From positions 2,849,001-2,913,000 of the forward strand of contig NZ_CP097800.1 of assembly GCF_000612545.2 (NCBI RefSeq): a stretch of DNA of 64,000 bases. Direction: 5' to 3'. The stretch is from Streptomyces sp. PCS3-D2. Lineage in GTDB: Bacteria > Actinomycetota > Actinomycetes > Streptomycetales > Streptomycetaceae. The translations under genes were made by a program, and so were the position numbers. Below, piece by piece: positions 46,898 to 61,444 of the stretch; position 1 is the first letter of the stretch, and each line of letters begins with the position of its first letter. The notes beneath the pieces are model-generated. The model was not told the origin of the DNA. It did no database searches and saw only the letters and a list, made by a program, of their open reading frames with translations.

Positions 46898-47857
46898 CTA
46901 CCGGCGCCGCATGTCCGCCACGCGGGCCCGTTCGCGCTCCCGTTCACCCGGGTCCGTCAGAGCCGACGCGCTGCGGAGTTGGGCCGTCGGGCCGCCGCGG
47001 CGCTGAACCGGGAGGGGGGAGTCGCGGCGTGGGCGGCGGGCGCCCAGGCCGTCCACACCGCCGGGGGCCGCGGCCTGGCCGCCCGCCACCGTGATCTGGA
47101 CGCCCTGGTCGGCCAGGGCCTGGAGCTCGGTGGCGGCGCGGTCGTCGTGCGGCGGGGGTTCGTCCGTGACCAGGCGGGTCATCACGTCCGTCGGCACCGT
47201 CTGGAACATGGTGTCCGTGCCGAGCTTGGTGTGGTCCGCCAGGACCACCACCTCCGCGGCCGCCTGCACCAGCGCCCGGTCCACGCTCGCGCTGAGCATG
47301 TTGGACGTGGACAGGCCGCGCTCCGCCGTCAGACCGCTGCCCGACAGGAAGGCACGGGAGACCCGCAGCCCCTGGAGGGACTGCTCGGCACCGCTGCCGA
47401 CGAGGGCGTAGTTGGACCCGCGCAGGGTGCCGCCGGTCATGACGACCTCGACCCGGTTGGCGTGGGCCAGCGCCTGGGCGACCAGGAGGGAGTTGGTGAC
47501 GACGGTCAGGCCGGGCACGCGGGCGAGCCGGCGGGCCAGCTCCTGCGTCGTGGTGCCCGCGCCGACGACGACGGCCTCGCCCTCTTCGACGAGGCCGGCC
47601 GCGACATCGGCGATGGCGGTCTTCTCCGCCGTCGCGAGATGGGACTTTTGCGGAAAGCCGGACTCCCGCGTGAAACCGCCCGGCAAGACCGCACCGCCGT
47701 GCCGGCGGTCGAGGAGTCCTTCGGCCTCCAGCGCCCGCACGTCCCGCCGTACGGTCACTTCGGAGGTCTGGACGACACGGGCGAGCTCCCGGAGCGACAC
47801 CGCTCCGTTGGCCCGCACCATTTCGAGGATCAATTGGCGACGTTCTGCAGCGAACAC
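46898..47857 (-). CDS. DeoR-family transcriptional regulator
   Basis: A 319-residue sugar-responsive repressor. The N-terminal DeoR helix-turn-helix is ERRQLILEMVRANGAVSLRELARV ... SEVTVRRDVRALEAEGLL. The C-terminal sugar-phosphate-binding domain is DeoRC-like: VGAGTTTQELARRL, VTNSLLVAQAL and GSGAEQSL. The last 60 residues are an Arg-rich, disordered extension absent from most members. The start is GTG 47857. No sugar operon is adjacent; the deoxyribose/nucleoside genes 2.4 kb away that share an operator are a possible but unproven target. A GAAAC...GTTTC repeat lies upstream (47858-47892). Confidence 0.88.
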   Translation of the reverse strand: MFAAERRQLILEMVRANGAVSLRELARVVQTSEVTVRRDVRALEAEGLLDRRHGGAVLPGGFTRESGFPQKSHLATAEKTAIADVAAGLVEEGEAVVVGAGTTTQELARRLARVPGLTVVTNSLLVAQALAHANRVEVVMTGGTLRGSNYALVGSGAEQSLQGLRVSRAFLSGSGLTAERGLSTSNMLSASVDRALVQAAAEVVVLADHTKLGTDTMFQTVPTDVMTRLVTDEPPPHDDRAATELQALADQGVQITVAGGQAAAPGGVDGLGARRPRRDSPLPVQRRGGPTAQLRSASALTDPGERERERARVADMRRR

Positions 47858-50241: not shown

Positions 50242-50253
50242 CTACGCGCGTAG
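50242..50253. promoter_or_regulatory. Palindrome CTACGCGCGTAG before punA
   Basis: A perfect 12-bp palindrome identical to the one before deoC (61433-61444). It covers the likely -35 region; a -10-like TACGCT lies at 50266-50271 and places the transcript start at the punA GTG. A repressor bound here would block transcription. Confidence 0.7.
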
Positions 50254-50278
50254 GCAATGAGCGGCTACGCTCGTCTGC

Positions 50279-51085
50279 GTGAACGCATCTGTTACCGATC
50301 CCACCGCCGCCGCCGACGCCGCAGCCGCCCGCCTGCGGGAGCTCACCGGCGCCGAGACCCACGATGTCGCCCTCGTCATGGGCTCCGGCTGGGCCCCGGC
50401 CGCCGAGGCCCTGGGCGCCCCCGAGGCCGAGTTCCTCGTCACCGAGCTGCCCGGGTTCCCCCCGGCCGCCGTCGAAGGACACGGCGGCAAGGTCCGCTCG
50501 TACAAGATCGGCGACAAGCGCGCGCTGGTCTTCCTGGGCCGCACCCACTACTACGAGGGCCGTGGCGTCGCCGCCGTCGCCCACGGTGTCCGTACCGCCG
50601 TCGCCGCGGGCTGCAAGACCGTCGTGCTGACCAACGGCTGCGGTGGTCTGCGCGAGGGCATGCAGCCCGGCCAGCCGGTGCTGATCAGCGACCACATCAA
50701 CATGACGGCCACGTCGCCGATCATCGGCGCGAACTTCGTGGACCTGACGAACCTGTACTCGCCCGCGCTGCGCGCGCTGTGCAAGGAGATCGACCCCTCC
50801 CTGGAGGAGGGCGTGTACGTCCAGTTCCCCGGCCCGCACTACGAGACCCCGGCCGAGATCAACATGATCCGCGTCATGGGCGCCGACCTGGTCGGCATGT
50901 CCACCGTGCTGGAGGCCATCGCCGCCCGCGAGGCCGGCGCCGAAGTGCTCGGCATCTCCCTGGTCACCAACCTGGCGGCGGGCATCTCCGGCGAGCCGCT
51001 GAACCACGAAGAGGTCCTCCAGGCCGGCCGCGACTCGGCCGCGCGCATGGGCAAGCTGCTGACCCAGGTCCTCGCCCGCATCTGA
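50279..51085 (+). CDS. punA: Purine nucleoside phosphorylase
   Basis: It splits purine (deoxy)nucleosides with phosphate into base and (deoxy)ribose 1-phosphate. The 268-residue trimeric-type enzyme has [11 protein letters not shown] (phosphate loop), [21 protein letters not shown], the substrate Glu/Met region [14 protein letters not shown], and [11 protein letters not shown] with the purine-contact Asn. The start is GTG 50279, probably on a leaderless mRNA. It is followed after 35 bases by the phosphomutase gene, which handles the sugar phosphate made here. deoC, which completes the pathway, shares its operator. Confidence 0.94.
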
Positions 51086-51120
51086 GGCCCCGGGACCGTA
51101 CGAGAGGTAAGGCGGAAGTA

Positions 51121-52767
51121 GTGCAGGAACAGGACGACCTGATCACCCGGGCGCAGGCCTGGCTGGCGGAGGACCCCGACCCGGAGACCGCGGCCGAGCT
51201 CGCCGCGCTCCTCGACGCGGGCGACACGGCGGAGCTCGCCGACCGGTTCTCCGGCACCCTGCAGTTCGGCACCGCCGGACTGCGCGGCGAGATCGGCGCG
51301 GGCCCGATGCGGATGAACCGCAGCGTGGTCATCCGGGCCGCGGCGGGCCTCGCGGCCTACCTGAAGGGCCAGGGCCACGCCGGCGGCCTGGTCGTCGTCG
51401 GCTACGACGCCCGCTACAAGTCGGCGGACTTCGCCCGCGACACCGCGGCCGTGATGACCGGCGCCGGGCTGCGCGCGGCCGTCCTGCCCCGCCCGCTGCC
51501 CACGCCCGTCCTCGCCTACGCCATAAGGCACCTGGGCGCCGTGGCCGGCGTCGAGGTGACCGCGAGCCACAACCCGCCCCGGGACAACGGCTACAAGGTC
51601 TACCTCGGTGACGGCTCGCAGATCGTCTCCCCGGCCGACGCGGAGATCGCGGCGGAGATCGCCGGCGTCGGCGCGCTCGCCTCGGTCCCCCGCCCGGACT
51701 CCGGCTGGGAGGACCTCGGCGACGAGGTCCTGGAGGCCTACCTGGCCCGTACGGACGCGGTCCTGACTCCCGGTTCCCCCCGCGGTGTGCGGACCGTCTA
51801 CACGGCCATGCACGGCGTCGGCAAGGACGTCGTGATGGCGGCCTTCGCCCGGCACGGCTTCCCGGAACCGGTCCTGGTCGCCGAGCAGGCCGAACCGGAC
51901 CCGGCCTTCCCGACGGTGGCGTTCCCCAACCCCGAGGAGCCGGGCGCGATGGACCTGGCCTTCGCCAGGGCTGCCGAGGTCCAGCCGGACATCGTGATCG
52001 CGAACGACCCGGACGCGGACCGTTGCGCGGTGGCCGTCCCCACCGCCGACGGCTGGCGGATGCTGCGCGGCGACGAGGTCGGCGCGCTGCTCGCGGCGCA
52101 CCTGGTCCACAAGGGCGCGACCGGAGTGTTCGCCGAGTCCATCGTCTCCTCCAGCCTCCTGGGCCGGATCGCGGAGGCGGCGGGCGTCGGCTACGAGGAG
52201 ACCCTCACGGGCTTCAAGTGGATCGCCCGCGTCGACGGCCTGCGCTACGGCTACGAGGAGGCGCTCGGCTACTGCGTGGACCCCGAGGGCGTCCGCGACA
52301 AGGACGGCGTGACCGCCGCCCTGCTGGTGGCCGAACTGGCCTCGGAGCTCAAGGAGCAGGGCCGCAGCCTGACCGACCTGCTCGACGACCTGGCGATGGC
52401 CCACGGGCTGCACGCCACCGACCAGCTCTCGGTCCGCGTGTCGGACCTGTCGGTCATCGCGAGCGCCATGGCGCGGCTGCGCGCGGAACCCCCGGTCTCG
52501 CTGGCCGGCCTGCGGGTCGTCTCGGCGGAGGACCTGACCAGGGGCACGGAGTCGCTGCCGCCCACGGACGGTCTGCGCTACTACCTGGACGGTGCGTACA
52601 AGGCCCGGGTCATCTGCCGCCCGTCGGGCACGGAGCCCAAGCTGAAGTGCTACCTGGAGGTCGTCGTACCGGTGCCCGAGGCCTCCGACCTGGCGTCGGC
52701 CCGTACCACCGGCCAGGAAGTCCTGGACGCGGTCAAGAAGGACCTTGCGGCGGCCATGGGCCTCTGA
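51121..52767 (+). CDS. Phosphohexo/pentomutase (phosphomannomutase family)
   Basis: A 548-residue alpha-D-phosphohexomutase. The phosphoserine loop is EVTASHNPPRDNGYKVY, the metal loop NDPDADRCAV, the sugar loop EEALGY, and the phosphate-binding loop RPSGTEPKLKCYLE. Position directly after punA suggests it interconverts (deoxy)ribose 1- and 5-phosphates as in PGM2-type mutases. This is consistent with the shared regulation of punA and deoC, but glucose or mannose phosphates are possible too. The start is GTG 51121 with GAGAGGTAAGG upstream. Confidence 0.9.
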   Translation: MQEQDDLITRAQAWLAEDPDPETAAELAALLDAGDTAELADRFSGTLQFGTAGLRGEIGAGPMRMNRSVVIRAAAGLAAYLKGQGHAGGLVVVGYDARYKSADFARDTAAVMTGAGLRAAVLPRPLPTPVLAYAIRHLGAVAGVEVTASHNPPRDNGYKVYLGDGSQIVSPADAEIAAEIAGVGALASVPRPDSGWEDLGDEVLEAYLARTDAVLTPGSPRGVRTVYTAMHGVGKDVVMAAFARHGFPEPVLVAEQAEPDPAFPTVAFPNPEEPGAMDLAFARAAEVQPDIVIANDPDADRCAVAVPTADGWRMLRGDEVGALLAAHLVHKGATGVFAESIVSSSLLGRIAEAAGVGYEETLTGFKWIARVDGLRYGYEEALGYCVDPEGVRDKDGVTAALLVAELASELKEQGRSLTDLLDDLAMAHGLHATDQLSVRVSDLSVIASAMARLRAEPPVSLAGLRVVSAEDLTRGTESLPPTDGLRYYLDGAYKARVICRPSGTEPKLKCYLEVVVPVPEASDLASARTTGQEVLDAVKKDLAAAMGL

Positions 52768-52778
52768 GTCCCCGGCCG

Positions 52779-52806
52779 CCCACCGCTTCCGGCCCACCGC
52801 TTCCGG
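52779..52806. repeat. Perfect 14-bp tandem duplication
   Basis: CCCACCGCTTCCGG occurs at 52779-52792 and again at 52793-52806, just after the mutase stop. Confidence 0.85.
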
Positions 52807-52827
52807 CCCGGGGCTCCGGCCCCGCCG

Positions 52828-52863
52828 GGGCAGGTTCCCGCCCCGTCCGGCGGGAACCTGCCC
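52828..52863. terminator. Hairpin 1 between mutase gene and afsQ operon
   Basis: A 15-bp perfect stem (52828-52842 with 52849-52863) around a six-base loop, between convergent genes. Confidence 0.8.
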
Positions 52864-52875
52864 AGCCGGATCCCC

Positions 52876-52902
52876 GGCCCCCCGAGCCCCGCTCGGGGGG
52901 CC
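52876..52902. terminator. Hairpin 2 between mutase gene and afsQ operon
   Basis: A 12-bp perfect stem (52876-52887 with 52891-52902) around a CCC loop. It lies 27 bases from the lipoprotein stop, so it probably ends the afsQ operon. Confidence 0.75.
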
Positions 52903-52929
52903 TCGTCGCGTCCGGGAGCGGCGGACCGC

Positions 52930-53571
52930 TCAGCGCGGCGACGCGGTCGGCCGGACGATCTCGCCCAGTGTCGGCACCGACTCCGGCCGTGAGCGGACCG
53001 CGTCCGTGCACTCCCACGCGCGCGGCGGATCGGCGTCCGGTCCGCCCAGGACCACCGGTCCGGGGCCGGCCGACACCGTCTCGCTGCCCGCCAGCGTGCA
53101 CACGATCTGCGACAACGCCACCGGCGGCAGATCCTCCGGCTTGCGGCTGAGCCGCACCGTGCCCGCCGGGTCGCCCGGCTTCGGCGCACCCGCCGTCAGC
53201 CCCGCCGGCACCCCGGTCGAGAAGCCGGCGTCCCGCTCCTGCGCAGTCGGCGTCCGCTCCAGCGCTTCCAGCAGCGCCTGCGCGGCCTGCGCGACGGGAT
53301 CCCGCAGCGCGCCCTTCTCCGGCATCGAGACGATCCGGTCCACGCCCACCAGCTGCGATCCGCAGACCAGTTCCACGGTGGCGCGGAAGCCCGGCGCCCC
53401 GCTCTGCCCGCCCGGCTGCTGCGCCGGGGTGTCGCACGAGACGCGCGACGGCGCCTCGCCCACGTCCACGGGCACCGTCGTCGCCCGGATCCCGCAGCCC
53501 GCCGTCGCGAGCAGGGCCGTCCCGAGGAGCGGGAGCAGTACGGCCGGCGCCGCCGGCAGGGTCCTACGCAT
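52930..53571 (-). CDS. Secreted lipoprotein of the afsQ operon
   Basis: A 213-residue protein with a signal peptide and lipobox ATAGC (Cys at residue 26), so it is anchored outside the membrane. The mature part has three further cysteines (SCDT, VCGS, VCTL) and one in WECT, which may form disulfides. ATG 53571 overlaps the afsQ2 stop by eight bases, so it is translated with the sensor kinase. A lipoprotein third gene in the afsQ operon is the known Streptomyces arrangement; a role in signal sensing by AfsQ2 is likely but not proven. No enzymatic motif is seen. Confidence 0.85.
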   Translation of the reverse strand: MRRTLPAAPAVLLPLLGTALLATAGCGIRATTVPVDVGEAPSRVSCDTPAQQPGGQSGAPGFRATVELVCGSQLVGVDRIVSMPEKGALRDPVAQAAQALLEALERTPTAQERDAGFSTGVPAGLTAGAPKPGDPAGTVRLSRKPEDLPPVALSQIVCTLAGSETVSAGPGPVVLGGPDADPPRAWECTDAVRSRPESVPTLGEIVRPTASPR

Positions 53572-55051
53572 CCGGATCACCCGTGATCGCCTTTCCCACG
53601 TCCACCGGCAGCCTCAGGGTGAACAGTGCCCCGCCACCGGGCACGTTGGCCGCGGCGATGTCGCCGCCGTGGATGTGCGCGTTCTCCACGGCGATCGACA
53701 GGCCGAGCCCGCTCCCGTCCGACTTCGGGCGGGACGCACTGGCCTTGTAGAAGCGGTCGAAGACGTGTGGCAGGACCTCCTCGGGGATGCCCGGCCCGTT
53801 GTCCTGGACCGCGATCACCAGCCAATCTCCCTGCACGGCCACCGACACCCGCACGGGCGAGCCGCCGTGCTTGAGCGCGTTGCCGATCAGATTGGCCAGG
53901 ATCACGTCGAGCCGGCGCGGGTCGAGCCGCACCACGATGTCCCGTCCGGCGTCGAGTTCGACCGCGTCGAGCCAGGCACGGGCGTCGATGCAGGCCGTGA
54001 CCTGGTCGGCGACGTTGACGTCGTCCAGCACCAGCTTGGCGGTACCCGCGTCGAAGCGGGTGACCTCCATCAGGTTCTCCACGAGGTCGTTCAGGCGCCG
54101 GGTCTCGCTGACGACCAGGGTCACCGCCGGGGCGATCATCGGGTCGAGGTCGTCGACCTCCTCCTCCAGGACCTCGGCCACCGCGGTCAACGCGGTCAGC
54201 GGCGTGCGCAGTTCGTGCGACATGTCCGCCACGAAGCGCCGGCTGGACTCCTCCCGTGCGCTCATGTCGGCGACCTTCTTCTCCAGCGCCTCGGCCGTCT
54301 TGTTGAAGGTGCGCGACAGGTCGGCGAGTTCGTCGGTGCCCGACACGTCGAGGCGGTGGTCCAGTTCGCCCTCGCCGAGCCGCCGCGCGGCGTCGCCCAG
54401 CCGCTGGACGGGCTTGAGCACGGTGCGGGCCGCGGCCTGCGCGAGCAGGGCGGAGCCGAGGAGGGCGAGGATCGTCGCGATGGTCAGCGACCAGGCGAGC
54501 GCGTTCAGGTCGTCCCGCTCCTGGGCGAGGGACTTGTACATGTAGCCGGTCGGCCCGCCGCCCACGATCCGCGTGCCGCCGACCAGGTACGGATTGCCGC
54601 GCGGCTTCGTGCGCTGCCAGTACACGTGGTATTCGGCGTCGTTCGCCGACGTCGTCTTCTGCCGGTCGTTCACCGCGTTCTGCAGGGACTTCGGCACGTC
54701 GGTCAGCCGGAAGTTGTCGGGCCCGGCCGCGCCGTACGTCAGGCGGTTGTCCTTGCCCTCCTGCACGAGCAGGACGCTGTAGCCGGGGCTGCTGCCCGCC
54801 ATCAGCTCGGCGGTGCGCTGCAGCTCCTCCGGGGTCGGGTCGGCGGGCAGCGCGGCGGCACGGTTCTGCATCTCCTGCCGGAAGTCGCCGAGGGCGGCAT
54901 CCTGGACGCGGGTGAGCACGGCCTCGCGGTTGAGCCAGTAGGCGATCCCGGACGCGGACACGGCGGCGGTCAGGGCGACCAGGGCGAAGACGACGAGAAG
55001 CCGCAGCCGCAGGCTGGTCCAGCGCCGGCCCGCGAGCAACGACCGGATCAC
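53564..55051 (-). CDS. afsQ2: Sensor histidine kinase AfsQ2
   Basis: A 495-residue membrane kinase. It has two transmembrane helices (about residues 17-38 and 187-208) around a 150-residue extracytoplasmic sensor, then a HAMP domain. The HisKA phospho-acceptor is in FVADMSHELRTPLTAL near residue 275. The HATPase has N box LIGNALKHGG, G1 DNGPGIP, F box FDRFYK and G2 GSGLGLSI. All catalytic boxes are intact. It starts at GTG 55051 overlapping the afsQ1 stop (GTGA). With AfsQ1 it responds to nitrogen/glutamate status and affects antibiotic production in S. coelicolor. Identity is supported by the whole cluster with sigQ. Confidence 0.93.
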   Translation of the reverse strand: MIRSLLAGRRWTSLRLRLLVVFALVALTAAVSASGIAYWLNREAVLTRVQDAALGDFRQEMQNRAAALPADPTPEELQRTAELMAGSSPGYSVLLVQEGKDNRLTYGAAGPDNFRLTDVPKSLQNAVNDRQKTTSANDAEYHVYWQRTKPRGNPYLVGGTRIVGGGPTGYMYKSLAQERDDLNALAWSLTIATILALLGSALLAQAAARTVLKPVQRLGDAARRLGEGELDHRLDVSGTDELADLSRTFNKTAEALEKKVADMSAREESSRRFVADMSHELRTPLTALTAVAEVLEEEVDDLDPMIAPAVTLVVSETRRLNDLVENLMEVTRFDAGTAKLVLDDVNVADQVTACIDARAWLDAVELDAGRDIVVRLDPRRLDVILANLIGNALKHGGSPVRVSVAVQGDWLVIAVQDNGPGIPEEVLPHVFDRFYKASASRPKSDGSGLGLSIAVENAHIHGGDIAAANVPGGGALFTLRLPVDVGKAITGDPDA

Positions 55052-55725
55052 TGCGGGGAGTCCAGGCGGTATCCGACGCCCCTGACCGTGCGGATCAGGG
55101 TGGGCGAGGACGGCACGTCCTCGACCTTGGCGCGCAGCCGCTGGACACAGGCGTCGACGAGCCGCGAGTCGCCGAGGTAGTCGTGCTCCCAGACCAGGCG
55201 CAGCAGCTGCTGGCGGGAGAGCGCCTGGCCCGGCCGGCGGCTCAGTTCGAGAAGGAGCCTCAGCTCGGTGGGCGTGAGCTGGAGGTCCTCGCCGTTCTTC
55301 GTCACCGTCATGGCGGCCCGGTCGATGACGAGTGAGCCGAAGCTCGCCGAGTCGCTCGACTCGCGTTCGCCGCGGCGCAGTACGGCCCGGATGCGGGCGT
55401 CGAGGACCCGCCCCTGGACGGGCTTGACCACGTAGTCGTCGGCTCCGGACTCCAGGCCGACGACCACGTCGATGTCGTCGCTGCGCGCGGTGAGCAGGAT
55501 GATCGGCAGCTGGTCGGTGCGGCGGATCCGGCGGCAGACCTCGAAGCCGTCGATCCCGGGCAGCATCACGTCCAGCACGATCAGGTCCGGCCGCTGCTCA
55601 CGCAGCAGCTTCAGGCCGTCCTCGCCCGTCGCCGCGGTGGCCACACGGTGGCCCTGGCGTGACAGGGAGAGTTCGAGGGCCGTGCGGATGGCGTCGTCGT
55701 CCTCGATCAGCAACAGGAAAGGCAC
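55048..55725 (-). CDS. afsQ1: Response regulator AfsQ1
   Basis: A 225-residue OmpR/PhoB-type regulator. The receiver domain has the acidic pair near residue 8 (LLLIEDDDAI), phospho-acceptor Asp in VLDVMLPGIDG (near 52), and Lys in VKPVQ (near 102). The winged-helix domain covers residues about 130-225 (LTPTELRLLLELSRRPGQAL ... IRTVRGVGYRLDS). GTG 55725 is chosen because it starts directly at PFLLLIEDD as in the known protein; an ATG at 55743 would add six residues. It binds GTnAC-N6-GTnAC boxes; one such box lies at 55818-55833 between it and sigQ. Confidence 0.94.
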   Translation of the reverse strand: MPFLLLIEDDDAIRTALELSLSRQGHRVATAATGEDGLKLLREQRPDLIVLDVMLPGIDGFEVCRRIRRTDQLPIILLTARSDDIDVVVGLESGADDYVVKPVQGRVLDARIRAVLRRGERESSDSASFGSLVIDRAAMTVTKNGEDLQLTPTELRLLLELSRRPGQALSRQQLLRLVWEHDYLGDSRLVDACVQRLRAKVEDVPSSPTLIRTVRGVGYRLDSPQ

Positions 55726-55817
55726 GGGCTCATTCTGTCCCATGGGCAGTCGGGAGTTCGACCGTCAGGGGGGCCGGATCCTGCCGGAGTCCGCGGGTGT
55801 CCTTCGGACGGGTCCCT

Positions 55818-55833
55818 GTGACAGTGCTGTGAC
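55818..55833. promoter_or_regulatory. AfsQ1-binding box in the afsQ1-sigQ intergenic region
   Basis: GTGAC (55818-55822), six bases, GTGAC (55829-55833): a perfect match to the AfsQ1 consensus GTnAC-N6-GTnAC. It is about 94 bases from each start codon, so it can control both sigQ and afsQ1. Confidence 0.85.
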
Positions 55834-55926
55834 AGTCGACGGACACCCCGGTTAAGTCGGCCGGGCAGGCTTCTACTCAACGCACAGCGATCCGAAGCAG
55901 AGACACTCCACGACGGGGGGCGCGAG

Positions 55927-56625
55927 ATGAACACGCTGCACAGCACCACCACCAGCGCGGTTGTCACGCGGCTGCACGATGTGAACCGCCGGGCGGGTGT
56001 CCGTTCGGTGGCGGTCGCCCGGCCCCGGCCGGCCCACGTCGTAGCCATTGACGCGAACCAGTACCGGGCGGTTCCCGCCCAGCAGCAGACGCCGTCCCCG
56101 GCGTCGGAGGCGGAGTTCACGGCGTACGTCCAGGAGCGGCGCGCGGCCCTGTACGCGACGGCCTTCCACCTCACCGGTGACCGTTACGAGGCCGAGGACC
56201 TGCTGCAGAGCGCGCTGTTCTCCACGTACCGCGCCTGGGACCGGATCAGCGACAAGGCCGCGGTCGGCGGCTACCTGCGCCGCACGATGACGAACCTGCA
56301 CATCAGCGCCTGGCGCCGGCGGAAGCTGAACGAGTACCCGACGGAGGAGCTGCCGGAGACGGCCTCCGACACGGACGCGATGCGCGGTACGGAGCTGCGC
56401 GCCGTGCTGTGGCAGGCGCTGGCCCGCATCCCGGAGCCGCAGCGCACGATGCTGGTGCTGCGCTACTACGAGGGCCGCACGGACCCGGAGATCGCGGAGA
56501 TCCTCGGAATCAGCGTCGGCACGGTGAAGTCGAGCATCTGGCGTTCGCTGCGCCGCCTGCGGGAGGACGAGTCGCTGAGCTTCGGCCGCGACGAGGCGGA
56601 GTCCTTCGAGGAGCTGGTCGCCTGA
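55927..56625 (+). CDS. sigQ: ECF sigma factor SigQ
   Basis: A 232-residue SigE-family ECF sigma factor. A 60-residue variable N-terminus precedes region 2 (FTAYVQERRAALYATAFHLTGDRYEAEDLLQSALFSTYRAW). Region 4 follows (LARIPEPQRTMLVLRYYEGRTDPEIAEILGISVGTVKSSIWRSLRRL), both complete. It diverges from afsQ1 and carries the AfsQ1 box upstream, the known arrangement in which AfsQ1 activates sigQ and SigQ opposes AfsQ1 output. No anti-sigma gene is adjacent. It starts at ATG 55927. Confidence 0.93.
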   Translation: MNTLHSTTTSAVVTRLHDVNRRAGVRSVAVARPRPAHVVAIDANQYRAVPAQQQTPSPASEAEFTAYVQERRAALYATAFHLTGDRYEAEDLLQSALFSTYRAWDRISDKAAVGGYLRRTMTNLHISAWRRRKLNEYPTEELPETASDTDAMRGTELRAVLWQALARIPEPQRTMLVLRYYEGRTDPEIAEILGISVGTVKSSIWRSLRRLREDESLSFGRDEAESFEELVA

Positions 56626-56708
56626 GGGCGGTCGGCGGGACCACATGAACCACCCCGGCCACGGGGGACCGTCTTGCGGGGGTGAGGCGGCGGCCAGCGG
56701 GGGAGAAG

Positions 56709-56748
56709 GCGCGGGATCGGTCGGGCGGGGGTCCGACCGGTCCCGCGC
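56709..56748. terminator. Hairpin between sigQ and uridine kinase gene
   Basis: A 16-bp stem with one mismatch (56709-56724 with 56733-56748) and an eight-base loop between convergent genes. The 235-base gap holds no gene. Confidence 0.6.
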
Positions 56749-56860
56749 ACCCGTTTGCGGGCCCGCGCGGCGCCGGGCGGATGTGCCGTCGGTCGTCCTG
56801 TCGGTCGGGCCGGTCCGGGCACCGGGGCGCGCGGACCCGACCCGATCGACAGGTCGTCCC

Positions 56861-57493
56861 CTACGCGGCGGCCGGGCTCGTGGAGCGGCGGCGGCCGGCG
56901 GCCGCGATCCGGCCGAGGGCCTCGTCGGGGCCGCAGGCGTGGGCGCCCAGTTCCAGGTGGCGGGCCACGATGCCCCGCTCGGCACGCATCAGGCGCCAGC
57001 CGCGGCGGATCAGGAACAGCACGGACTTGCGGCCCTCGCGCAGATCGCGGACGAGCCGGCGGCGGAAGGTCGTCGAGGGGCGGCCGCGCAGGCAGATGGC
57101 GTCCGCGAGGAGGCCGAGGTCCTGGCAGCGGGCGGCCACGTCCGCGGCGAAGATGCCCTCGGCGACGAACAGCGGCGTGCGGGCGATGTCGAGGGTGTCC
57201 CAGCCGGTCCGGGAGCTGGTGGCGATGTCGTAGACGGGCACGTCCGTCCGTCCCGACGCGCACAGCTCGGCGATCGCGGCGACGGCGGCGTCGGCGTCCC
57301 ACGACAGGGGGGAGTCCCAGTCGATGTCGGAGCTGCCCTCCACCAGCGGCAGGCTGGGGTCGCCGGCTTCCTTGTAGAAGTCGTCGAGGCGCAGTACGGG
57401 CAGCCCGGCGCGGGCGGCGAGGGAGGATTTTCCGGAGCCCGACGGACCGGTCAGCAGGACGACTCGGGTCGGCGAAGGAGAGGAAGAGCTCAC
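56861..57493 (-). CDS. Uridine kinase-like P-loop kinase
   Basis: A 210-residue kinase with Walker A GPSGSGKSS (about residues 15-23), the acidic LRLDDFYKEAGD that holds the catalytic Asp, and DWDSPLSWD and VYDIATS as in uridine/cytidine kinases. The lid region is Arg-rich. It probably phosphorylates uridine or cytidine, linking to nucleoside use by the neighbouring punA/deoC genes; phosphoribulokinase-like substrates are the alternative. GTG 57493 is the chosen start; the frame upstream lacks a start signal. Confidence 0.82.
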   Translation of the reverse strand: MSSSSPSPTRVVLLTGPSGSGKSSLAARAGLPVLRLDDFYKEAGDPSLPLVEGSSDIDWDSPLSWDADAAVAAIAELCASGRTDVPVYDIATSSRTGWDTLDIARTPLFVAEGIFAADVAARCQDLGLLADAICLRGRPSTTFRRRLVRDLREGRKSVLFLIRRGWRLMRAERGIVARHLELGAHACGPDEALGRIAAAGRRRSTSPAAA

Positions 57494-57613
57494 GGGACAC
57501 CAGTCTGAACCATTCCCCCGGGTAGGGGATCCTCCCGGTGACCGGTTGGTGTCCAGGAACACACCTCCACTACGCTGCGTGCGCACGCGACTACGACCAC
57601 AGGCGGGATCCCC

Positions 57614-57964
57614 ATGGCACGTCACGCAGCCCCTTCGGCCCCGAACCGGCTCCGCAGCGCGGGTCTGACCCTCTCGATGGCCGGCGCCGCGCTGGCGATG
57701 GCGGCGGGCGGCGCCCAGGCCGGCGAGCTGGACGTCCCGGCGGCGGTGGCCGGGGTCACCGACCCGATCGCGAACCTCAAGGTGAACCCGCTGGCCCACA
57801 CCGGCGTGGACCCGCTGGACAACGGGGTCGCCACCAAGGTCGCCGACTTCCCCGCCGTCGGCACCGGCATGGTGACGGGCATCCTCACACAGGGACCGTC
57901 CGTCGGCGAGCTGCCCACCGCGGCCGTCTCCTCGCTGCTGGGCCCGGCGCTGCCCGCGAAGTAG
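57614..57964 (+). CDS. Small secreted protein
   Basis: A 116-residue protein with a signal peptide (about residues 1-36, cleavage after AQA in GGAQAGEL). The mature chain has no cysteines and includes a repeated NPLAHTGVDPLDNG-like segment followed by a hydrophobic C-terminal part. It is of a type frequent in Streptomyces (ATP-binding-protein-like secreted peptides), without known function. It starts at ATG 57614 and is divergent from the uridine kinase gene. Confidence 0.78.
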   Translation: MARHAAPSAPNRLRSAGLTLSMAGAALAMAAGGAQAGELDVPAAVAGVTDPIANLKVNPLAHTGVDPLDNGVATKVADFPAVGTGMVTGILTQGPSVGELPTAAVSSLLGPALPAK

Positions 57965-57996
57965 CCCACACCCGGGCCCGTGCGCGGGCGTACGAA

Positions 57997-58029
57997 GGCC
58001 CCGGCGGCGCGGGGGACACCGCCGGGGCC
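57997..58029. terminator. Hairpin between secreted protein and aldehyde dehydrogenase genes
   Basis: An 11-bp perfect stem (57997-58007 with 58019-58029) and an 11-base loop between convergent genes. Confidence 0.65.
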
Positions 58030-58103
58030 GGTCTCGCAGGAGGCAGGGCCCGGGCCCCGCGACCGGGGTCGCACCCGGCCGCGCGCTCCTTCGACGGCAG
58101 GAC

Positions 58104-59000
58104 CTAGTAGGACGAGCCGCCCGCGCCCAGCGACCCGGTGGGGTGCCAGACCGTCTTGGTCTCCAGGAACGCCGTCATGCGGGAGGTTCCCGGGTCGGCG
58201 CTCCAGTCGTCCACAGGCTGTGGACGCAGGACGCGCTTGAGGTTGTCGGCCGCTGCGATCTCCAGTTCCTTGGCGAGCGCCGCGTCGGCGCCGGCCAGGT
58301 CGATCGCGTTGACGTCCTGGTGGGACGCCAGGTGCGGACCCATCTCGGCGGCCTTGCCGGACAGGATGTTGACCACGCCGCCGGGCAGGTCGGAGGTGGC
58401 GAGCACCTCGCCCAGCGAGAGCGCCGGCAGCGGGGACTTCTCACTGGCGACGACGACGGCGGTGTTGCCGGTCGCGATGACCGGGGCGATCACCGACACC
58501 AAGCCCAGGAACGAGGAGTCCTGCGGGGCGACGACGGTGACGACACCGGTGGGCTCGGGGGTGGAGAGGTTGAAGAACGGTCCCGCGACCGGGTTGGCCC
58601 CGCCCACGATCTGTCCGATCTTGTCCGTCCAGCCCGCGTACCAGACCCAGCGGTCGATGGCCGCGTCGACGACGGCGGCGGCCTTGGACTTGGACAGCCC
58701 CTCGGCCTCGCCGACCTCGCGGACGAACTGCTCGCGGCGGCCCTCCAGCATCTCGGCGATGCGGTAGAGGATCTGGCCGCGGTTGTAGGCGGTCGCGCCC
58801 GCCCAGCCGCCGAAGGCCTTGCGCGCCGCGACGACGGCGTCACGCGCGTCCTTGCGGGAGGACAGGGGGGCGTTGGCCAGCCACTTGCCCTTGGAGTCGC
58901 TCACCTCGTACACCCGGCCGCTCTCGGAGCGGGGGAACTTGCCCCCGACGTACAGCTTGTAGGTCTTGAAGACGCTCAGACGCACAGAGGACTCAGACAT
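58104..59000 (-). CDS. Short aldehyde-dehydrogenase-like protein lacking the catalytic domain
   Basis: A 298-residue protein with the N-terminal NAD-binding part of an aldehyde dehydrogenase (KLYVGGKFPRSESGRVYEV, APQDSSFLGLVSVIAP). The downstream catalytic features are absent: no ELGGK glutamate and no GQxCxA cysteine. After residue 230 the sequence is unrelated to the family. It overlaps the full-length aldehyde dehydrogenase gene upstream by eight bases, so both are made together, which points to a regulatory or structural partner rather than an enzyme. The frame is intact and codon bias normal, so it is not simply decay. Confidence 0.85.
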   Translation of the reverse strand: MSESSVRLSVFKTYKLYVGGKFPRSESGRVYEVSDSKGKWLANAPLSSRKDARDAVVAARKAFGGWAGATAYNRGQILYRIAEMLEGRREQFVREVGEAEGLSKSKAAAVVDAAIDRWVWYAGWTDKIGQIVGGANPVAGPFFNLSTPEPTGVVTVVAPQDSSFLGLVSVIAPVIATGNTAVVVASEKSPLPALSLGEVLATSDLPGGVVNILSGKAAEMGPHLASHQDVNAIDLAGADAALAKELEIAAADNLKRVLRPQPVDDWSADPGTSRMTAFLETKTVWHPTGSLGAGGSSY

Positions 59001-60444
59001 CGAGGTAGGCCTCCAGACCGTGGCGGCCGCCCTCGCGGCCGAAGCCCGACTCCTTGTAGCCGCCGAAGGGCGAGGTCGGATCGAACTTGTTGAACGTGTT
59101 GGCCCACACGACCCCGGCGCGGAGCTGGTTGGCGACCGCGAGGATGCGCGAACCCTTCTCCGTCCAGATGCCGGCGGACAGGCCGTACTGGCTGTTGTTG
59201 GCCTTGGCGACGGCCTCGTCGGGCGTGCGGAAGGTCAGCACGGACAGCACCGGGCCGAAGATCTCGTCGCGGGCGACGGTGTGCGCCTGGGTGACGTTGC
59301 TGAAGAGCGTCGGGGCGAACCAGTAGCCGGCGGACGGCAGCTCGCAGGCCGGGGACCACCGCTCGGCACCCTCGGCCTCGCCGGTGTCCGCGAGGGCGGT
59401 GATCCGGGCGAGCTGCTCGGCGGAGTTGATCGCGCCGATGTCGGTGTTCTTGTCGAGCGGGTCGCCCAGGCGCAGCGTGGAGAGGCGGCGCTTGAGGGAG
59501 TCCAGCAGCTCGTCGTGGATCGACTCCTGGACCAGGAGGCGGGAGCCCGCGCAGCAGACCTGGCCCTGGTTGAAGAAGATGCCGTTGACGATGCCCTCGA
59601 CGGCCTGGTCGACGGGGGCGTCGTCGAAGACGATGTTGGCGCCCTTGCCGCCCAGCTCCAGGGTGACCTTCTTGTCGGTGCCGGCGATCGAGCGGGCGAT
59701 GGCCTTGCCGACGGCGGTCGAGCCGGTGAAGGCGACCTTGTTGACGTCCGGGTGCTCGACGAGGGCCGCGCCCGCGTCGCCGTACCCGGTGAGGATGTTG
59801 ACGACGCCCTTGGGCAGGCCCGCCTGGCGGCAGATGTCGGCGAAGAAGAGCGCGGAGAGCGGTGTGGTCTCGGCGGGCTTCAGGACGACCGTGTTGCCGG
59901 TGGCGAGGGCCGGGGCGATCTTCCACGCGAGCATGAGCAGCGGGAAGTTCCACGGGATGACCTGGCCGGCGACGCCGAGCGGGCGCGGGTTCGCGCCGTA
60001 GCCCGCGTGGTCGAGCTTGTCGGCCCAGCCCGCGTAGTAGAAGAAGTGCGCGGCGACCAAGGGGAGGTCCGCGTCCCGCGTCTCCCTGATCGGCTTGCCG
60101 TTGTCCAGGGTTTCCAGGACCGCGAGCTCCCGGCTGCGCTCCTGGATGATCCGGGCGATGCGGAAGAGGTACTTGGCGCGCTCGGAGCCCGGCAGCGCGG
60201 ACCACTTCTCGAAGGCCTTGCGGGCGGCCTTCACCGCACGGTCCACATCGGCGGCGCCTGCCTGGGCGACCTCGGAGAGGACCTCCTCGCTGCTGGGCGA
60301 GACGGTCTTGAAGACCTTGCCGTCGGCGGCGTCGGTGAACTCGCCGTCGATGAAGAGCCCGTAGGAGGGGGCGATGTCGACGACCGAGCGGGACTCGGGG
60401 GCCGGCGCGTACTCGAAGAGGGAAGTCGTGTTGTCCATGTTCAT
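58993..60444 (-). CDS. Aldehyde dehydrogenase
   Basis: A complete 483-residue NAD(P)-dependent aldehyde dehydrogenase. It has PWNFPLLM near residue 164, LKPAETTP, the general base Glu263 in LELGGKGAN, and the nucleophile in FFNQGQVCCAG (Cys297/Cys298). The C-terminal FGGYKESGFGREGG is present. The gene is six bases downstream of deoC, so it should oxidise acetaldehyde, the product of DeoC, to acetate. That link rests on operon context. It is coupled to the short aldehyde-dehydrogenase-like gene. Confidence 0.94.
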   Translation of the reverse strand: MNMDNTTSLFEYAPAPESRSVVDIAPSYGLFIDGEFTDAADGKVFKTVSPSSEEVLSEVAQAGAADVDRAVKAARKAFEKWSALPGSERAKYLFRIARIIQERSRELAVLETLDNGKPIRETRDADLPLVAAHFFYYAGWADKLDHAGYGANPRPLGVAGQVIPWNFPLLMLAWKIAPALATGNTVVLKPAETTPLSALFFADICRQAGLPKGVVNILTGYGDAGAALVEHPDVNKVAFTGSTAVGKAIARSIAGTDKKVTLELGGKGANIVFDDAPVDQAVEGIVNGIFFNQGQVCCAGSRLLVQESIHDELLDSLKRRLSTLRLGDPLDKNTDIGAINSAEQLARITALADTGEAEGAERWSPACELPSAGYWFAPTLFSNVTQAHTVARDEIFGPVLSVLTFRTPDEAVAKANNSQYGLSAGIWTEKGSRILAVANQLRAGVVWANTFNKFDPTSPFGGYKESGFGREGGRHGLEAYLDV

Positions 60445-60450
60445 GGGGTC

Positions 60451-61413
60451 TCAGTCCACCGTCACGTAGTCGGGACCGGAGTAACGGCCGGTGCTCAGCT
60501 TCTGGCGCTGCATCAGCAGGTCGTTGAGCAGGCTGGAGGCGCCGAAGCGGAACCAGGTGTTGCTCAGCCAGTCCTCGCCCACGGTCTCGTTGACCAGGAC
60601 CAGGAACTTGATCGCGTCCTTGGTCGTGCGGATGCCGCCGGCCGGCTTCACGCCGATCTGGATTCCAGTCTGCGCCTTGAAGTCGCGGACGGCCTCAAGC
60701 ATGAGCAGGGTGTTCGCGGGGGTGGCGTTGACGCCCACCTTGCCGGTCGACGTCTTGATGAAGTCGGCGCCCGCGAGCATGCCGATCCAGGAGGCGCGGC
60801 GGATGTTGTCGTAGGTCGACAGCTCGCCGGTCTCGAAGATGACCTTCAGGCGCGCGGCGCTGCCGTCGGGACGGGTGCAGGCCTCCTTGACGGCCTTGAT
60901 CAGCTCGTACGTCTCCAGGTAGTGGCCGGCGAGGAAGGCGCCACGGTCGATGACCATGTCGATCTCGTCCGCGCCGGCGGCGACGGCGTCGCGGGTGTCC
61001 GCGAGCTTGACGGGCAGCGCGGCGCGGCCTGCGGGGAAGGCGGTGGCGACGGAGGCGACCTTGACGTCGGCGCCGTTCAGGGCGGCCTTGGCGGTGGCCA
61101 CCATGTCGGGGTAGACGCAGACGGCGGCCGTCATCGGGGTGGTGCGGTCGGTCGGATCGGGATGGACGGCCTTGGCGGAGAGCGCCCGGACCTTGCCCGG
61201 GGTGTCCGCGCCTTCCAGCGTCGTCAGGTCGATCATCGAGATGGCCAGGTCGATGGCGTACGCCTTGGCCGTCGTCTTGATCGAACGGGTGCCGAGCGAG
61301 GCCGCGCGGGCCTCCAGACCGACAGCGTCGACGCCGGGCAGCCCGTGCAGGAAGCGGCGCAGCGCACTGTCGGACGTCGTCACGTCAGCGAATGCGGTGA
61401 GGGTGGTGGGCAT
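60451..61413 (-). CDS. deoC: Deoxyribose-phosphate aldolase
   Basis: It splits 2-deoxyribose 5-phosphate into glyceraldehyde 3-phosphate and acetaldehyde. The 320-residue TIM-barrel protein has the Schiff-base lysine in ADFIKTSTGK and the second lysine in GVKPAGGIRT. The signature VCVYPDMVATAK and ADEIDMVIDRGAFL are also present. It is about 60-70 residues longer than bacterial DeoC of the E. coli type; the extra parts are an N-terminal helix region and the C-terminal YSGPDYVTVD, as in the eukaryote-like long form. It starts at ATG 61413, 20 bases after the CTACGCGCGTAG operator. Confidence 0.95.
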   Translation of the reverse strand: MPTTLTAFADVTTSDSALRRFLHGLPGVDAVGLEARAASLGTRSIKTTAKAYAIDLAISMIDLTTLEGADTPGKVRALSAKAVHPDPTDRTTPMTAAVCVYPDMVATAKAALNGADVKVASVATAFPAGRAALPVKLADTRDAVAAGADEIDMVIDRGAFLAGHYLETYELIKAVKEACTRPDGSAARLKVIFETGELSTYDNIRRASWIGMLAGADFIKTSTGKVGVNATPANTLLMLEAVRDFKAQTGIQIGVKPAGGIRTTKDAIKFLVLVNETVGEDWLSNTWFRFGASSLLNDLLMQRQKLSTGRYSGPDYVTVD

Positions 61414-61432
61414 GGTCACCAGAGGAGCATAT

Positions 61433-61444
61433 CTACGCGCGTAG
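61433..61444. promoter_or_regulatory. Palindrome CTACGCGCGTAG before deoC
   Basis: Identical to the palindrome before punA (50242-50253), and both have a T in front (TCTACGCGCGTAG or its mirror). Here it lies 20 bases from the start codon and overlaps a TAGATA that could be the -10. Confidence 0.7.

Follow-up and report, generated by a model that had tools for sequence, protein, structure and literature searches.

Palindromic sites before punA and deoC in Streptomyces sp. PCS3-D2 are predicted operators of a nucleotide-use regulon under a LacI-family regulator encoded behind glnR

The window analysed here, a 64,000-nucleotide stretch of Streptomyces sp. PCS3-D2 (NZ_CP097800.1; C1:2849001-2913000 of the 7.6-Mb genome), contains two operons for nucleoside use, punA with a mutase gene and deoC with two aldehyde dehydrogenase-type genes, each preceded by a copy of the 12-bp palindrome CTACGCGCGTAG. 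With one flanking base added per side (T/A), the palindrome gives the 14-mer consensus TCTACGCGCGTAGA. The features of the window that bear on these sites are:

46898..47857, minus strand, DeoR-family gene (Pfam DeoRC and HTH_DeoR)
50242..50253, predicted operator before punA (14-mer TCTACGCGCGTAGG, one base off the consensus)
50279..51085, plus strand, punA, purine-nucleoside phosphorylase (NCBIfam TIGR01698 above cut-off; Pfam PNP_UDP_1)
51121..52767, plus strand, phosphomannomutase/phosphoglucomutase-family gene behind punA (Pfam PGM_PMM domains I-IV)
58104..59000, minus strand, second, shorter aldehyde dehydrogenase-family gene (Pfam Aldedh)
58993..60444, minus strand, aldehyde dehydrogenase gene behind deoC (Pfam Aldedh)
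60451..61413, minus strand, deoC, deoxyribose-phosphate aldolase (NCBIfam TIGR00126 above cut-off)
61433..61444, predicted operator before deoC (gene strand GCTACGCGCGTAGA; within the spacer of the promoter-like GTGACA-N18-TATGCT)

Exact copies of CTACGCGCGTAG stand at 50242-50253 and 61433-61444, while 0.00 were expected in the window (100 dinucleotide shuffles); no further copy was detected in the window even with two mismatches allowed, and outside the two sites it holds no 14-mer within three mismatches of TCTACGCGCGTAGA. These results agree with a sequence-only reading of the same DNA, which had seen this pair alone and had placed both copies within 30 bases of a start codon: the palindrome ends 25 bp before the punA GTG (50279) and lies ~13-19 bp from the deoC start (minus strand; GTG ending at ~61419 or ATG at 61413, read by eye). 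The same reading had the palindrome covering predicted promoter elements at both genes. At deoC a sigma-70-like promoter was found whose spacer is occupied by the copy (GTGACA-N18-TATGCT, 61455-61426, minus strand; shuffles 0.0, s.d. 0.1); at punA no promoter passed the same scan. A site in the promoter spacer is a geometry typical of a repressor, and we infer repression by the LacI-family dimer proposed below. The mutase encoded behind punA may have a role as a pentose-phosphate mutase.

Across the genome, the 12-mer occurs four times without mismatch versus none for a backward control, and these copies precede punA, deoC, add (C1:2915773) and a gene for an ATP-binding cassette (ABC) transporter ATPase (C1:2931210), the last standing behind a Bmp-type lipoprotein gene (Bmp-type ABC transporter). 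A copy with one mismatch is located between cdd and deoA (C1:2926613), before deoA, and it falls with the four exact copies inside 32 kb. For the 14-mer TCTACGCGCGTAGA the genome holds no perfect copy, nine sites with one mismatch and nine with two, compared with six control sites at two mismatches or fewer. All nine one-mismatch sites are at nucleotide or nucleic-acid genes: the punA, deoC, add, deoA and ABC ATPase sites, purS-purQ-purL, an NCS2-type permease gene (Pfam Xan_ur_permease), an operon of carbon-nitrogen hydrolase, aminotransferase and dihydropyrimidinase genes (pyrimidine catabolism), and a gene whose secreted product carries the HNH-type nuclease domain GmrSD_C (Pfam). Of the nine two-mismatch sites, one stands before a 5'-nucleotidase gene, one before a 5'-nucleotidase/cyclic-phosphodiesterase-like gene, so named by eye and with a G512 counterpart that does not reach the NCBIfam cut-offs, and one before the gene of an exonuclease/endonuclease/phosphatase-like secreted protein that scores under the Pfam cut-off. 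The remaining six lie within genes or beside unrelated or unclear genes.

The palindrome is shared widely among relatives. In our samples, the family is presumably Streptomycetaceae and the genus is taken as Streptomyces, a 3.3-kb stretch of purine genes sharing 84.8% identity with Streptomyces sp. TRM68367. The 12-mer was found in 61 of 61 genus genomes (230 copies versus 37 for the backward control) and in 100 of 101 family genomes, with 264 copies versus 36 in the 80 genomes that are not of the genus. A 13-mer used on a draw from the class matched 40 of 40 genus members and 6 of 354 others; in the four of these six non-family genomes with called genes, the copies had unrelated neighbours. 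In the order outside the family the 12-mer is at background level (3 of 15 genomes, one copy each, versus nine control copies), and two order-neighbour copies (L172, L173) were rejected as operators, lying as they do inside an IMP-dehydrogenase-like gene (by eye). Among nine family genomes picked mostly for having few exact copies, a site with at most one mismatch is kept before punA in 8 of 9, before deoC in 8 of 8 and before add in 4 of 4 of those with the gene in the stretch. The conservation predicted before punA and deoC in related species is borne out by these counts, and the conserved operator-like site upholds the earlier grouping of the punA-mutase and deoC-aldehyde dehydrogenase operons in one nucleoside regulon.

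The flanking bases follow a pattern of their own. Among 142 distinct exact 12-mer sites, many of them orthologous and so not independent, the consensus T was present on one side in 125, on neither in 17 and on both in none, with T on 44% of sides. A perfect 14-mer is present at purSQL in one Streptomyces; even so, the fully matching palindrome that relatives in other groups use seems to be disfavoured in this family.

The relatives also extend the list of target genes. In nine Streptomyces-type genomes, exact copies away from the cluster sit where a second adenosine deaminase gene begins; these genes share 61-62% identity with add. Three more copies of this site were seen in further loci. By eye, purN-like genes (L127, L214) also follow exact copies, as do the purQ/lsr2-like locus L080 and the 5'-nucleotidase-like gene L226. 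In seven relatives we read 73 loci centred on 13-mer sites with at most one mismatch, a set that omits most copies of the nucleoside cluster, one G013 site and all of G462 and that represents G231 by sites among the matches listed; by our reading, 46 of the 73 sites adjoin a gene of nucleic-acid or nucleotide function, a call that is no more than probable for 10 of them. Recurrent targets are a carbon-nitrogen hydrolase gene, purS, the NCS2 permease and nucleotidases, and further ones are purF, purN, a guanyl-type RNase, acid phosphatases, PLD-like proteins and a cytosine/purine permease, many of these names reflecting similarity by eye to domain-tested examples. One gene taken by eye for a permease (L257) gave no NCBIfam or Pfam match and was not counted. 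The sequence-only reading was thus correct about nucleoside genes and too narrow in scope: add and the second adenosine deaminase belong to the set as well, and so do nucleobase permeases, nucleotidases, secreted nuclease-like genes and the genes of pyrimidine catabolism and de novo purine synthesis.

Several of these target promoters show features of separate interest. At the second adenosine deaminase gene (L077, L078, L079, L081, L083, L085, L094, L095 and L096) the palindrome overlaps the first codons, counted from the start of the longest open reading frame (ORF), and the overlapped peptide ATRV uses GCT and GTA codons, which are rare in such GC-rich genomes. Two to three near-copies per promoter, 14-188 bp apart, were observed at L278:1743 and 1799, L275:1574, 1762 and 1818, L299:1756 and 1770, and L216:2026 and 2059; the promoters belong to secreted nuclease-like, nucleotidase-like or lipoprotein genes, and looping or cooperative binding might be involved. 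Near-copies also precede GH25 lysozyme-type genes (L260:1720, L338:1699) and a phospholipase A2 gene (L264:1743), so that the set perhaps also helps to open dead cells. In two genera (L295, L216), genes for peptide-type solute-binding lipoproteins carry the site; the substrate might be a nucleoside-peptide or similar compound.

A candidate regulator was tied to the palindrome by a blind scan of a named genome collection with the perfect 14-mer, which yielded at least 119 loci. A LacI gene with the unusual helix AVVSYV is present in 39 of them, and the same pattern found no other LacI type in these loci; the gene lies within 1.8 kb of the site in 38 of the 39 and within 150 bp in five. Among 362 other loci, the LacI pattern matched two and AVVSYV none. 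Streptomyces appears among the matches listed with the lsr2-purSQL gap only. Four enterobacterial loci (L367, L374, L412, L434) share the order site, major facilitator superfamily (MFS)-like transporter, LacI, nucleoside-hydrolase-like gene (names by eye), which a Pseudomonas locus (L404) repeats with one extra gene between (by eye). In Kibdelosporangium the site stands 26 bp before the LacI start, as read, and a cytosine/purine permease gene comes after; in two class members from other families (G171, G145) the AVVSYV LacI gene faces a nucleoside-hydrolase-like gene across an intergenic gap holding the diverged palindromes TCTATTCGAGTAGA and TCTAAACGATTAGA. The helix AVVSYV is paired with the palindrome across phyla. 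We define an AVVSYV-type subfamily by the helix TSxAVVSYV together with a TCTACGCGCGTAGA-like palindrome at the targets, and both marks were found. In a tree, 20 LacI proteins of the family form one clade (100/100) and the subfamily spans three phyla; towards the base of the tree, which had only two outgroup rows, branches are long and support is weak.

Some assemblies in the scan hold several perfect 14-mers. In Bifidobacterium aemilianum (L416:6203 and 6264) two of them, 61 bp apart, precede a transporter-like gene with the AVVSYV LacI gene behind it. Several occur per assembly in one Klebsiella-labelled metagenome-assembled genome (L384, L391, L408) and one Anaerolineales bin (L396, L442), which would fit bins with wrong labels or a different user of this site.

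The member of this subfamily in the present genome lies outside the window:

C1:4133956-4134978, minus strand, candidate regulator of the LacI family, 340 aa

It belongs to the LacI family by its Pfam matches (LacI, 49.1 bits against a cut-off of 27; Peripla_BP_3, 111.6 bits against 26.5), and the gene upstream is glnR (Pfam GlnR_1st). When the family was queried with the Kibdelosporangium LacI protein, 101 of 101 genomes matched above 189 bits, and below the gap that follows the scores were 177 bits or less. In all 20 family loci read, the LacI gene is located directly 3' of glnR on the same strand and its product has the helix TSTAVVSYV, the 19 relatives being 68-97% identical. No orthologue was found in the 15 order neighbours, where the two best matches are weak and have the helix PATVSRVLN. 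In S. coelicolor the LacI regulator SCO4158 is encoded downstream of glnR/sco4159, according to PMC9739823, and because of this shared place behind glnR we equate the candidate, by position, with SCO4158. The available parts of the literature on SCO4158 name no nucleotide targets; an ArgR site is given upstream of this gene in PMC5839063, and the reference list of PMC9739823 contains a title on SCO4158 in pigment production.

Just before the start of the LacI gene, the right half CGCGTAGA of the palindrome is present in 17 of the 20 family loci, the best 14-mer having two mismatches in two promoters, three in 15 and six to seven in three; it is a possible weak self-control site. In most of the 20 genomes this half-site overlaps TAGACT near the GTG start (for example in the promoter of the LacI gene at L512:9957-10979). 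In the present genome, no 12-mer site with at most one mismatch precedes a regulator gene in the 17 of 18 places read (two of them, L209 and L211, being without a called gene nearby). The sequence-only reading had expected deoA and transporter genes downstream of further copies, and both were there.

That reading had named as nearest candidate the DeoR-family protein encoded at 46898-47857. In that case the protein would bind the palindrome, much as E. coli DeoR binds operators of its own, and would respond to a sugar phosphate. Its gene is the sole regulator gene close to punA and has lpd and punA as neighbours in 8 of 9 stretches read (the remaining one starts beyond the gene), and the protein has a DeoRC sensor domain. 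A match is also found in 101 of 101 family genomes, and therefore its presence says nothing either way on the question of the regulator. Set against these points, none of 38 loci around its orthologues holds the 14-mer at one mismatch or fewer, and its own promoter carries a different conserved, repeated element (by eye). Furthermore, ten loci from other families, with DeoR homologues 58-70% identical, contain no 12-mer at one mismatch or fewer and no punA or deoC that we could find; five of them keep SEVTVRRDVR and four adjoin sugar-type ABC ATPase genes. With the LacI protein tied to the palindrome across phyla, we dropped the DeoR protein, which we now regard as a very improbable regulator of these sites. 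Two other candidates were also set aside: a MarR gene by the NCS2 permease, which is next to an MFS gene here and in G531, G013, G231, G456 and G501, absent from the fetched G512 and G474 stretches, and was dropped when the LacI link appeared, and a GntR gene that was seen only once, next to a weak site of G231 (L310).

We conclude that the palindromes are very probably the operators of one LacI-family repressor of the SCO4158 type encoded behind glnR, a proposal made from sequence comparison that builds on the directly computed sites, their conservation, the gene set and the helix-palindrome pairing. A LacI dimer would bind TCTACGCGCGTAGA-like DNA through its helix-turn-helix, at or between promoter elements, and would thereby block transcription; its release would jointly switch on the secreted nuclease-like enzymes, the nucleotidases and nucleoside/base uptake, together with nucleoside and pyrimidine catabolism and purF, purSQL and purN. 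Its ligand would probably be a nucleobase or nucleoside. As the de novo purine genes share the operator, we favour a PurR-like logic, in which purine sufficiency would keep the set off and shortage would release it, and give it roughly an even chance; simple induction by nucleosides, for which the catabolic targets and the local loci of relatives argue, is a tentative second choice. On balance, we lean slightly towards a history in which a LacI subfamily found elsewhere (Actinomycetota, Pseudomonadota, Chloroflexota) at small loci mostly for nucleoside use became a global regulator in Streptomycetaceae, with operators mostly one base short of the ideal 14-bp palindrome, a deviation that would allow graded release across the set.

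Several observations weigh against control of all these sites by one such repressor. In the scan, 80 of the at least 119 loci are without a LacI gene of this type, and 27 of the 73 sites read in relatives are intragenic or have neighbours whose function is a different one or unknown. One family genome (G460) is without exact copies and without a site at one mismatch or fewer at punA, yet has kept the LacI gene, and in 14 of the 101 family genomes two homologues score above the gap in bit scores, so that the acting protein is not unique there. The promoter of the LacI gene itself has no strong site, only the half-site. It is, moreover, not an obvious design for a single repressor to act with the same sign on purine synthesis and on nucleoside catabolism. 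A LacI protein of this kind might instead act as an activator or roadblock at some sites, with the purine synthesis genes regulated opposite to the catabolic genes; the site geometry fits such a difference, the purS sites standing ~60-80 bp before the start and those of punA, deoC, add and deoA ~20-31 bp, but LacI proteins are mostly repressors, and we consider this arrangement unlikely. Finally, the 12-mer at one mismatch or fewer is not enriched in the genome (18 copies versus 28 for the backward control), as would be the case if the copies were chance palindromes of a GC-rich genome. The expectation of 0.00 exact copies in the window, the family-wide excess over the control and the nine of nine one-mismatch 14-mers at nucleotide or nucleic-acid genes make that explanation barely credible; the signal emerges once the flanking T/A and the gene starts are taken in.

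The operator set of the proposed LacI repressor can be compared with known systems. Like E. coli PurR, the candidate is a LacI-family protein with a global set that includes de novo purine genes, and solved PurR chains are among its best matches (151-154 bits); solved chains of Bacillus CcpA match it better (164-176 bits), and by these phmmer scores, the sole measure taken, PurR is not its closest relation as an orthologue would be. Unlike that of PurR, its set adds secreted enzymes, nucleoside catabolism and pyrimidine-base catabolism, and the PurR box differs from the TCTACGCGCGTAGA-like sites found here. With the DeoR/CytR regulon of E. coli it shares the catabolic targets deoC, deoA, cdd and nucleoside uptake, while the operator is another one and add, purine synthesis and extracellular enzymes are joined to the set. 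In the available part of their survey, Ravcheev et al. 2014 (PMC4052901) report PurR orthologues only in three gammaproteobacterial orders, count CcpA, PurR, FruR, PckR and GapR as global LacI regulators, and place AdeR, HpxR and UriR among the local ones for nucleosides; its supplements may contain an entry for the candidate or its enterobacterial relatives. These local regulators and the bifidobacterial RbsR2/RbsR3 (PMC4746261) resemble the candidate, as far as the consulted parts of both papers go, in family and in having nucleoside hydrolase and transporter targets, and the AVVSYV relatives found here also run such small loci. The Streptomyces-type set is far larger, and the RbsR2/RbsR3 consensus TGATAAAACGTTTTATCA, given in the accessible text, differs from the palindrome. 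SCO4158 agrees with the candidate in its place behind glnR, as in 20 of 20 family loci, a comparison by position only with the accessible part of PMC9739823. Literature searches with the palindrome string or its 10-letter core returned, by title, nothing on Streptomyces regulation, and searches for a Streptomyces nucleoside/purine regulon and by target-gene locus tags gave no match by title.

The LacI gene behind glnR thereby gains a predicted binding site and a target set. If the proposal is true, these soil bacteria would draw carbon, nitrogen, phosphate and purines from the DNA and RNA that dead cells leave, all via one switch, and this scavenging switch would be linked to purine supply.

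Between the two operator-bearing operons, the window holds a region without a palindrome copy (53564-55743). By Pfam it contains a histidine kinase gene (53564-55051), next to which a 231-aa ORF perhaps encodes the response regulator of the kinase.

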